Positions 4,077-31,789 of a stretch of 31,797 bases of DNA are shown one piece after another. Source of the DNA: a virus; the IMG/VR virus record IMGVR_UViG_3300025146_000047, positions 1 to 31,797 of that record; one strand, given 5' to 3'. The notes under the pieces are model-generated. The model saw nothing but the letters and a program-made list of their open reading frames with translations. It made no database searches and was not told where the DNA came from. How positions within the stretch are numbered: position 1 is the first letter of the stretch; each line of letters opens with the position of its first letter. A program made the position numbers and the translations under genes.

Positions 4077-4080
4077 TTTT

Positions 4081-10695: not shown

Positions 10696-10859
10696 TTCGA
10701 GTCTCCCTCAACGGTCTCTTTGGCCTCAAAGAGAGCCAGCGTGCCAGCGGCGACAACCTCGTCGTCGCTCAGGGTGCGAACTTCCTCGACATCCTCCGCT
10801 TCCTCGTAGATCGTTCTGCCATCACGAGAGATTTCAACCCTGACAGTCAGCTTGCTCAT
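10692..10859 (-). CDS. Small acidic protein (55 aa)
   Basis: A 55-codon gene between the zinc finger gene and the helicase loader, with ATGA overlaps at both ends (ATG 10859-10857, TGA 10694-10692). Begins MSKLTVRVEISRDGRTIYEEAEDVEEV and ends KETVEGDSK. Strand-forming N-terminus then acidic helix. Family unknown; the double coupling argues it is real. Confidence 0.65.
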   Translation of the reverse strand: MSKLTVRVEISRDGRTIYEEAEDVEEVRTLSDDEVVAAGTLALFEAKETVEGDSK

Positions 10860-11677
10860 AGCAAACTCTCTTGCTGAGCGGCGAGACGCATGTCTGCGCC
10901 CTCGAGGTGTAGCACTTTGAAACGTGCGTCGTGAATGCGTGAAGAAAGATAAGCGTCGAGCAGTTCGGGATTCTCGTTGCTCGCCATGATCGTGATGCTT
11001 TGACCGCGCAGAGCTCGCTGATAGCGCTCATCCATCAGCACGAATTTTCTTTCCTCAGCGAACTCAGTGCCACGCACACGATCGAACTCGTCGATCGCCA
11101 ACAGCGGCGTTGAAATCCAGCGAGACAGCTTGATCTCTGAGACCTCGCTCGCGTTCTCTTTGTCGAACGCACTGCGCAGGTCGTCGATGATGCGAGCCAT
11201 GCTGACGTAGGTTGCAGACGTTTTCTTTTCGAGCATCGTCTTTACTGCGATGTGGAGCGCGAGCGTCTTTGCGATGCCCGTTGAGCCCCACAAGTAGAGC
11301 CAGCCATGCCCGCGCTCGATCACGGCCTCGATCGCTTCTCTCGCTTCAAGCGCGCTGTCTGTCTCGAGCAAAGCATCCCACGCGAGCTTTCGCTCAGCGA
11401 CGTACATGCGTTGTTGAACCTCGAGCGGCTCGTCGTAGATGCCAGCAGGTAACAAACCACAGCTCGCAAATATCTCGAAGCTCATCATGTCTCGGTTGGG
11501 GCAAGGCTCAATTCTTCCGAACTTGGGATGACCGACTGGCAGATCGTAGCGAACGTACCCGATGCCATGGCATATCTCACAGTCCTCGGCGCACAGCTCT
11601 TTGACGATCTGCTTGAAAACTGGATCTACTTTCGGCTTCTGATCGATCTTGCCTTTTGCTTTTACCTTTGTTGCCAT
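10856..11677 (-). CDS. DnaC/IstB-like helicase-loader ATPase
   Basis: 273 residues. N-terminal zinc site from C29, C33, C36 and C59; Walker A GSTGIAKT (131-138), in which the glycine before the lysine is alanine; Walker B LLAIDE (192-197); sensor MASNEN (231-236); arginine-finger-like SRIHDARF (246-253). This is the DnaC/IstB architecture. In phages these ATPases load the replicative helicase at the origin. It follows the initiator gene, as in many siphovirus replication modules. The start at 11677 has GAAAGCTGAGG and a 5-base spacer. Confidence 0.85.
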   Translation of the reverse strand: MATKVKAKGKIDQKPKVDPVFKQIVKELCAEDCEICHGIGYVRYDLPVGHPKFGRIEPCPNRDMMSFEIFASCGLLPAGIYDEPLEVQQRMYVAERKLAWDALLETDSALEAREAIEAVIERGHGWLYLWGSTGIAKTLALHIAVKTMLEKKTSATYVSMARIIDDLRSAFDKENASEVSEIKLSRWISTPLLAIDEFDRVRGTEFAEERKFVLMDERYQRALRGQSITIMASNENPELLDAYLSSRIHDARFKVLHLEGADMRLAAQQESLL

Positions 11678-11693: not shown

Positions 11694-11798
11694 CTTTCGG
11701 TGATTGTTGTCGAACAGCTTACACCAGATCAGCAACGAGAGCGCCAGCACGGCGACGATCGAACTCTCGATGATGAGTATTGCCACTAGCGAGCTCAT
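11685..11798 (-). CDS. Tiny membrane protein (37 aa)
   Basis: 37 residues between initiator and loader genes; ATG 11798 overlaps the initiator TGA (ATGA), and its own TGA is part of the next ribosome site. A nearly all-hydrophobic stretch from residue 3 to 28 (LVAILIIESSIVAVLALSLL...) is followed by a basic tail (NNHRKES), predicting a single pass with cytoplasmic C-terminus. Function unknown. Confidence 0.6.
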   Translation of the reverse strand: MSSLVAILIIESSIVAVLALSLLIWCKLFDNNHRKES

Positions 11799-12613
11799 TT
11801 CTTGAGCCTTCTGACTTCACGTTCAGCGGCTTCGCGCTTTGTGTTCGCATCGAAGCCCTTGATCGTGGGATTAGCCTTTTCTTCCTCGTGAAGAAAATCG
11901 TACTTGCCGTTCAGTATCTTGAGATAGTTCTCGTCGTTGCGCAGAAAGAACTCGAGATCAAACCAGCCCTTGGCGAGTAAGCCTCTGTTCTTGCTGGCTT
12001 TCGTCATGGCTCTTTTCCAGTTCGTAGCGAAGCCTTTGTCTTTGATGCGCTTCTCTGCGAGCGAGCGATACTTGGTCGTCGTGATCTTGGGCTGTGCCTT
12101 GTCGGGAAACTCTACGCCCCACTGCTCGAGAATTTCGCCCAGAATGTGCTTATGTTTAGAATCTATATCTAATGATGGTTGTAAGGATGATTCGTTTTCA
12201 CTGGCTGAAATATCTGTCGTTTCACTGACTGAAATATCCTGCTCTGAGGGTATTTCACTGGGTGAAATTTCGCTTTGAGCAGAGATTTCACTGGCTGAAA
12301 TAACTAGTTTATGTACGTCGATCGTGTAATCTGCCGTGTTGCGCTTCGAGCGCCCCTGATATTCGATGTAGCCATTCGCTTGCAAAGCATCGAGCCCGTC
12401 GACGACCGTTGCCTGACCGCGCAGAGAAGTCTTGCGCATCAGACGAAAGATGCTCGGGTACGCACCCTCGCCCTCATCGCTTGCGTGATCAGCGAGAGCC
12501 AGCAAAATAAACTTTGCCGTCGCCGCTTTGATCGTCTTATACTCGCCGCTCTTTTGAATCGACAGGTCTTGCATGTCGTGAGCAAAGACGAGCGCCATCA
12601 GTCGAACGCTCAT
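11795..12613 (-). CDS. Replication initiator / DnaD-like replisome protein with N-terminal winged helix
   Basis: 272 residues. Residues about 25-105 are a winged helix-turn-helix of the HTH_36 type: TAKFILLALADHASDEGEG, YPSIFRLMRKTSLRGQATVV and ALQANGYIEYQ. A linker (about 112-147) repeats the pentapeptide I-S-x-S-E four times, and the DNA encoding it is a set of palindromic iterons. The C-terminal part (YRSLAEKRIKDKGFATNWKRAM) is helical like replisome-organiser proteins. It precedes the helicase loader. Such proteins bind the origin and recruit the loader. Confidence 0.75.
   Translation of the reverse strand: MSVRLMALVFAHDMQDLSIQKSGEYKTIKAATAKFILLALADHASDEGEGAYPSIFRLMRKTSLRGQATVVDGLDALQANGYIEYQGRSKRNTADYTIDVHKLVISASEISAQSEISPSEIPSEQDISVSETTDISASENESSLQPSLDIDSKHKHILGEILEQWGVEFPDKAQPKITTTKYRSLAEKRIKDKGFATNWKRAMTKASKNRGLLAKGWFDLEFFLRNDENYLKILNGKYDFLHEEEKANPTIKGFDANTKREAAEREVRRLKK
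12147..12301. other. Putative replication origin: four palindromic iterons plus AT-rich segment
   Basis: Four 16-base near-identical palindromes TTTCACTG(G/A)(C/G)TGAAAT at 12196-12211, 12220-12235, 12253-12268 and 12286-12301. Next to them 12147-12195 is unusually AT-rich (CTTATGTTTAGAATCTATAT...), a candidate unwinding element. The array is inside the initiator gene, the arrangement of lambdoid and other siphovirus origins. Binding by the encoded initiator is inferred. Confidence 0.65.
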
Positions 12614-12798: not shown

Positions 12799-12802
12799 TT
12801 CG

Positions 12803-12813
12803 CCTCAGCTTTC
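12803..12813 (-). promoter_or_regulatory. GAAAGCTGAGG leader motif before gene at 12798
   Basis: Exact 11-mer, 4 bases before the ATG; a partial copy GAAAGCT lies 10 bases further upstream. Confidence 0.75.
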
Positions 12814-12825
12814 TATTAGCTTTCG

Positions 12826-12865
12826 GCGGCTCGAGCGAAAGCTGAGGTGCGAACGCTCGAGCCGC
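12826..12865. promoter_or_regulatory. 12-bp perfect hairpin presenting the leader motif in its loop
   Basis: Arms 12826-12837 (GCGGCTCGAGCG) and 12854-12865 are exact inverted repeats. The 16-base loop, with the last stem base, holds GAAAGCTGAGG (12837-12847), the same 11-mer used as a ribosome site elsewhere, yet no credible gene follows it. It sits in the divergent region between the two early operons. Possible operator, RNA regulator or attenuator. Confidence 0.6.
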
Positions 12866-30616: not shown

Positions 30617-31789
30617 TTAGTCGACCGTATACAAGATCGCCAAACGAGCCGCACCCGCGGTCGCGTTCGCATTCTGGCCTGTGTACTTGCAGAGCACGGT
30701 GATGTCGCTTGCACCAACATCGGCCATTGCGATAACCATGTCGGCCGCGTCACCCATACGGTTGATGCCAGCAGTGCCGCCAGCGAGATCATCCACATAT
30801 TCGTCGGGGTCGCCGCTTGTCGTGCCGCAGGCGATGAGGTCAGTGCCGCTGTCATCGAATGCAGTCGATACCCAAAACGTGATGTCGACGATGTTTGCAT
30901 TCGCAGGAATGACGCAGATCGTTTTGTTGGCGGTGTCGCCAAAAGCGACCGTGTTCTCGCAGGCAAAGATCAAGCCCGAGTTAGTAGAGTTTTGGGCGAT
31001 GACATCTGCACCCGCAAGAACAGTCAGACCACCGTCTTTCACGAGCAAGCCGTCAATCGTTACACCACTCGCGGCCGTTGTCTCTGCGATCGTATTTGTC
31101 GCGATCGTTGAGCCCGAGAGAGCTGTAAGCAGGTTGGCGGTAAACGTGAAATCATCAGCGCCGCTGATCTCGACATCGATCTGATCGTCTGTTGGCGAGC
31201 TGAGCGTTGTGTCAGCATCGGCATCCAAGATCAGCCCGTCAGCTTCGCCGTTGATGTCAGCAAAGCCACCTGTGCCGAGTAACCAGCCTAAATCCTTGAT
31301 CAACAGACCGTCGACAGTAACGCCGTTAGTTGCGGTCGTTTCGTTGATCGTGTTCGTTTCGATGCTTGAGCCGCTCAGCGCACGAAAGATATTCGCCACA
31401 AAGCGGAAGTCATCAGCGCCGTTGATCTCAACGTCGACCTGATCATCGGTGTCGGCAGTGAGCGACGTGTCGGCATCTGCGTCGAGCGTGAGCTCTAAGC
31501 CGTTCAAGTCGACCACGCCCGAGACAGTGATGCCTGCGGACGACGTGATCGCGCCTGTCGCGCCGTCGATGCGCGCAACCTCGGTCGTGTGATTGTCTGA
31601 GTAGACGATCACATCAGCGCCGTTGTAGAGGTAAGCATCCTCACCAGCGTCGATGCTGATGCGCTCTCTTACCCCGCGAGCTTCGATGCCAGCGCTCGTT
31701 TCGTTGAGCAGAAAATTCACTGCAAAGATCGAGACGATCAGGCACAAGATCACGGTCGGCCAAGAAACTTTTTTCAGAAAATCTTTCAT
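30617..31789 (-). CDS. Repeat-containing fibre/decoration protein with N-terminal hydrophobic segment
   Basis: 390 residues, ending 8 bases from the right edge (ribosome site only partly visible). Residues 9-28 (SWPTVILCLIVSIFAVNFLL) are a signal- or membrane-like segment, odd for a virion protein. Two copies of a module occur at about 98-166 and 186-252, each with LDADADT, TDDQ(V/I)DVEI(N/S)GADDF and (E/A)TNTI(N/A)ETTA, ending in VDGLL(I/V)KD-type text. C-terminal AGINRMGDAADMVIAMADVG, VLCKYTGQNANATAG is common in environmental phage structural proteins. A capsid fibre or decoration role is likely. Confidence 0.6.
   Translation of the reverse strand: MKDFLKKVSWPTVILCLIVSIFAVNFLLNETSAGIEARGVRERISIDAGEDAYLYNGADVIVYSDNHTTEVARIDGATGAITSSAGITVSGVVDLNGLELTLDADADTSLTADTDDQVDVEINGADDFRFVANIFRALSGSSIETNTINETTATNGVTVDGLLIKDLGWLLGTGGFADINGEADGLILDADADTTLSSPTDDQIDVEISGADDFTFTANLLTALSGSTIATNTIAETTAASGVTIDGLLVKDGGLTVLAGADVIAQNSTNSGLIFACENTVAFGDTANKTICVIPANANIVDITFWVSTAFDDSGTDLIACGTTSGDPDEYVDDLAGGTAGINRMGDAADMVIAMADVGASDITVLCKYTGQNANATAGAARLAILYTVD

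Follow-up and report, generated by a model that had tools for sequence, protein, structure and literature searches.

Where does an uncultured phage without close relatives begin to replicate its genome, and why does the gene for its predicted initiator carry an array of palindromic repeats? These questions are raised by the 31,797-nt window formed by positions 1-31,797 of IMG/VR record IMGVR_UViG_3300025146_000047, in which four 16-bp repeats, here called iterons, lie within a minus-strand open reading frame (ORF; 11795-12613) encoding a replication initiator-like protein. A sequence-only reading of the window had proposed an iteron-type origin embedded in this gene. The analysis presented here indicates that the array, together with the AT-rich element adjoining it, is very likely a lambda-type replication origin inside the initiator gene of a tailed phage, with predicted protein binding and origin activity.

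Palindromic iterons within the initiator gene

The pattern TTTCACTG(G/A)(C/G)TGAAAT was found in four copies starting at 12196, 12220, 12253 and 12286, with spacings of 24, 33 and 33, exactly as the sequence-only reading had placed them, and TTTCACTGRSTGAAAT gave four exact matches, which were the same four iterons. In gene order, iteron 1 occupies 12286..12301 (TTTCACTGGCTGAAAT), iteron 2 occupies 12253..12268 (TTTCACTGGGTGAAAT), iteron 3 occupies 12220..12235 (TTTCACTGACTGAAAT) and iteron 4, the copy nearest to the AT-rich element, occupies 12196..12211 (TTTCACTGGCTGAAAT); none of them is assigned a strand. When up to three mismatches were allowed, nine matches were present in the window compared to 0.86 expected, and none of 100 shuffles reached nine. 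No fifth copy with one mismatch was found in the record.

The repeats are also palindromic, each being a dyad TTTCA-N5-TGAAA with arms of 5 bp, or 6 bp in copies 3 and 4, though the centre is asymmetric. The copies were 88-100% identical across the 16 bp, compared to 12-50% for both 8-bp flanks (27% expected), and each iteron is a sharply bounded 16-bp block. No other clustered palindrome family was present in the 39.2-kb genome of the virus, which is known from a second record described below. All four copies lie inside the initiator ORF, in the portion that codes for the flexible linker, and the array is approximately 300 bp from the start codon.

Palindromes in a coding region could also work at the RNA level by forming hairpins in the mRNA, with attenuation or control of translation as possible functions. 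The fold of the 12140-12310 mRNA was indeed better than that of shuffled sequences (z -2.7, with 2 of 200 shuffles equally good), but a better fold is expected by construction from mutually complementary palindromic repeats. Moreover, the 5-6-bp arms would give weak individual hairpins, no terminator-like site was present at the array, and no Rfam family was matched. A role of this kind is considered extremely unlikely.

An AT-rich element adjoins the array

Nearest-neighbour duplex stability was calculated over the 39.2-kb genome for segments of 30, 40, 50, 60, 80, 100 and 150 nt. The AT-rich stretch at about 12142..12190 (no strand), downstream of the iterons in gene direction, was the least stable duplex of the genome at 30, 40, 50, 80, 100 and 150 nt and the second least stable at 60 nt. 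The least stable 40-, 50- and 100-nt segments started at 12151, 12149 and 12141 (12141-12240), respectively. The AT-rich stretch said to lie beside the repeats thus proved to be the weakest duplex of the genome at nearly every scale, and it is a candidate DNA unwinding element.

A mechanism can be proposed in which we infer iteron binding, dimer stoichiometry, melting, helicase loading and origin use in this phage. Dimers of the N-terminal helix-turn-helix (HTH) domain of the initiator would bind the four dyad-symmetric 16-bp iterons, and the assembled nucleoprotein complex would strain the adjoining AT-rich element (about 12142-12190) until it opened. The C-terminal part of the initiator would then receive the replicative helicase by way of the DnaC-like loader, whose gene is adjacent, and helicase loading would be followed by the host replisome.

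The same sites could instead be operators at which the initiator, or some other regulator, controls how the replication operon is transcribed, and would then not be the place where replication starts. HTH regulators, too, typically have dyad sites centred on 5 bp, and in other phage contigs TTTCA-N5-TGAAA arrays occur where there is no long ORF. In contrast, the array studied here is intragenic, at a distance of about 300 bp from the start codon; the sole promoter-like match in its vicinity is on the other strand and does not exceed the number expected by chance, and no iteron copy is present at the divergent intergenic region. Operators would also leave unexplained the adjoining genome minimum of duplex stability, and this alternative is judged quite unlikely.

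The repeats are constrained at the DNA level

In gene direction every iteron reads ATT-TCA-NNC-AGT-GAA, so that all four copies encode I-S-x-S-E, as the sequence-only reading had noticed. The codons used are all minority choices in this phage (ATT 17.5%, TCA 11.7%, AGT 6.7% and GAA 31.5%), and the naive probability of the same codons occurring across the four copies is approximately 4e-14. When codons were shuffled synonymously, either among those of the gene itself or following the codon usage of the phage, none of 2000 shuffles yielded four palindromes. Recent duplication is an unlikely source of the repeats because the spacers are near-random in identity and the synonymous sites inside the blocks are unchanged. 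These findings suggest that, in the one genome considered, the repeats are selected as DNA. The claim that the linker exists partly because of the DNA repeats was borne out by the minority codons kept, by the synonymous shuffles and by the differing linkers of distant genes.

Several results weigh against an origin at this site. The iteron spacings are all multiples of 3, and peptide-level repetition may for that reason contribute to the array. The searches for close initiator homologues returned only the second record of the same virus from viral contigs and none from phage records. The GC-skew minimum lies near a gene-strand switch, and the skew at 4-fold sites in minus-strand genes does not favour the array site. 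GC skew, which had been put forward as a check, was rejected as origin support: the detrended minimum was at 11698, 0.5 kb from the array, its amplitude was within shuffle noise (block shuffles matched it 15-21% of the time), and it was confounded with gene strand.

Carried further, the in-frame spacing and the I-S-x-S-E encoded by each copy would fit repeats that simply reflect a repetitive Ser/Glu linker in the protein, multiplied by duplications that preserved the reading frame; any selection would then act on the peptide. However, each copy retains the rare codons, with Ser encoded by two different codons that keep their positions, and flanks near chance identity indicate that any duplication was not recent, yet the synonymous sites are unchanged. 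In addition, linker peptides differ in relatives, several of which carry out-of-frame DNA repeats at the same place. An origin of the array in the protein alone is very unlikely. Dual coding selection, in which the in-frame spacing is kept as the ISxSE peptide has a role of its own, is rated as unlikely; here sites and linker would have evolved together and the linker would be no passive by-product. A linker of fixed composition, for example, may determine the placement of HTH dimers on adjacent iterons.

The initiator and the neighbouring helicase loader

The O-like replication initiator gene (11795..12613, minus strand) encodes 272 amino acids comprising an N-terminal HTH_36 domain, a Ser/Glu-rich linker and a C-terminal part. 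In a Pfam profile search the protein matched PF13730 HTH_36 with 29.4 bits compared to a cut-off of 25. The position of this match places a predicted DNA-binding HTH domain at residues 32-83, corresponding to 12365..12520 on the minus strand when coordinates are derived from residue numbers. Several PHROG replication initiation families were matched as well, including phrog_1032 (E 2e-13) and phrog_391 'O-like' (E 6e-9). These matches agree with the proposal that the repeats lie inside a gene for an HTH initiator-like protein. No Phage_rep_O match was found in Pfam, where the only hit besides HTH_36 was a weak LexA_DNA_bind (E up to 0.05); neither Pfam nor NCBIfam yielded a plasmid Rep family at E up to 0.05, and no PDB chain matched the sequence. 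Single-sequence structure prediction gave a predicted local distance difference test (pLDDT) score of 41 and was not used for fold search.

The next gene downstream (10856..11677, minus strand) encodes a DnaC-like helicase loader, an AAA+ ATPase that matched PF00004 above cut-off and phrog_50 DnaC-like helicase loader with E 6e-16. DnaC/DnaI-type matches in NCBIfam were below the cut-offs of those models. Homologues of the loader were found in only two contigs, at 38-39% identity, and none were found in bacterial genomes.

Repeats in other initiator genes

Repeated 10-mers within 250 bp were compared with within-gene synonymous permutations in 12 genes that either encode initiators, as lambda O does, or occupy the initiator position, and in 10 loader genes as controls; the sample is small and non-random, and the genes of L037, L038 and L039 were picked as lying upstream of a loader, so that not all are verified initiators. 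A p of about 0.001, the floor of the test, was obtained for 10 of the 12 genes; the exceptions were L039 (p 0.017) and Morganella phage IME1369_01 (p 0.29). Lambda O served as positive control, and its annotated iterons were recovered at p about 0.001. Nine of the 10 loader controls were without repeat signal, the remaining one being the L038 loader (p 0.006). The repeats of L038 are partly low-complexity.

The main arrays were mostly located at about residues 100-175, directly after the HTH part. Repeat sequences varied from phage to phage, as did the linker peptides (for example ASPKIVPE and VKGEK), but the repeats stayed at the same place. Copies were partly out of frame with each other in lambda, Ab1656-2, Highwayman, L137, L037 and L040, and the repeats there therefore cannot exist for the peptide. 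The weakest 60 nt of the gene lay directly 3' of the repeats in the studied phage, lambda, Highwayman and L137, overlapped the repeats in Ab1656-2 and L037, was at the repeat start in L035 and was elsewhere in L040. The expectation that relatives keep the repeats while the linker changes thus held among distant genes, in which position is kept and peptides differ; for a comparison within the lineage there was no close homologue in the collections searched. This small survey suggests that iterons in the initiator linker are widespread and that both the repeat sequence and the linker peptide are free to change.

When viral contigs were scanned for three TTTCA-N5-TGAAA copies, 22 loci were found, and only for the same virus was the array in an initiator gene. 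The other loci fell either within unrelated reading frames or in places without a long ORF. HTH_36 was searched in 50 terminase-related records, one of which, L137, was above cut-off and has its own different, out-of-frame repeats. As a separate observation, the viral contigs L013, L017, L019, L022, L027, L032 and L033 carry TTTCAYRNNNTGAAA arrays with a spacing of mostly 20 or about 40 bp, mostly without a long reading frame across them; they may serve as operators or origins in phages of an unrelated group.

Genome and record context

The whole window is contained in IMGVR_UViG_3300025312_000064 (39,209 bp), the second record of the same virus. A third record, IMGVR_UViG_3300025314_000083, spans both ends of the 39,209-bp contig at 100% identity, and because it bridges these ends the 39.2-kb record is most likely a complete circular or circularly permuted genome, though linear in IMG/VR. 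The window carries tape-measure and connector genes, and terminase, portal and capsid ORFs are present in the extra 7.4 kb of the second record (names were read off the translations, with terminase additionally supported by search). Judged by these genes, the source virus is a tailed phage.

Other features were observed in the window. A DNA methyltransferase-like gene adjoins a ParB-like gene at 1170-2966 on the minus strand, and the ORF at 30617-31789 contains two stretches of about 80 bp (31142-31219 and 31400-31477) that are 80% identical, an internal protein repeat. The motif AAAGCTGAGG(T) was found in nine copies with at most one mismatch compared to 0.75 expected, at 4080, 6944, 7389, 7597, 11682, 12802, 12838, 14460 and 15585. 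Most copies are a few bases 5' of a start codon, and the motif is probably an extended ribosome-binding site common to the genes of this phage. Upstream of the replication operon, the intergenic region between divergent genes contains, at 12802-12862, the interleaved inverted repeats CCTCAGCTTTC...GAAAGCTGAGG and CGGCTCGAGCG...CGCTCGAGCCG, which may be a site for divergent operator or promoter control.

Comparison with known systems

In lambda and Stx phages, O dimers bind to iterons that are located in gene O next to an AT-rich tract and have the form of imperfect inverted repeats (PMC5043065, PMC7466680). Lambda O/ori-lambda and its Stx relatives share with the studied phage imperfect inverted-repeat iterons in the linker region of the initiator, and in lambda as here an AT-rich unwinding region is just downstream of the iterons in gene direction and the helicase-loader gene comes next. 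The resemblance to the lambda O gene and origin that had been proposed was upheld by the O-like initiator, by the DnaC-like loader next to it and by the lambda O repeats at the matching place. In contrast, the iteron sequences are unrelated, and the lambda spacing is 20, 24 and 23 compared to the wider, in-frame 24, 33 and 33. Unlike lambda O, the studied initiator combines HTH_36 with O-like PHROG matches and is without a Phage_rep_O match, and its loader is a DnaC-like AAA+ protein.

Bacillus phage SPP1 is likewise comparable, since its oriL lies within gene 38, whose product is the protein that binds this origin; the gene contains the origin repeats together with an AT-rich element, and the helicase loader is encoded separately (PMC6316719). 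SPP1 differs in that direct repeats and a second origin, oriR, are described for it, whereas the studied genome has one palindrome array. Iteron plasmids of the F, P1 and RK2 type also have arrayed initiator-binding repeats (predicted binding in the phage) beside an AT-rich region, but the studied initiator matches no plasmid Rep family.

The array provides a concrete, testable origin for this phage. A search for synonymous-excess repeats in the gene before a helicase loader, combined with the stability minimum, recovers lambda ori and could place origins in many metagenomic phages. The lambda-like design itself is well known from lambda, the Stx phages and SPP1; what is new is a sequence-unrelated instance of it in an uncultured phage, together with a simple test for placing origins.
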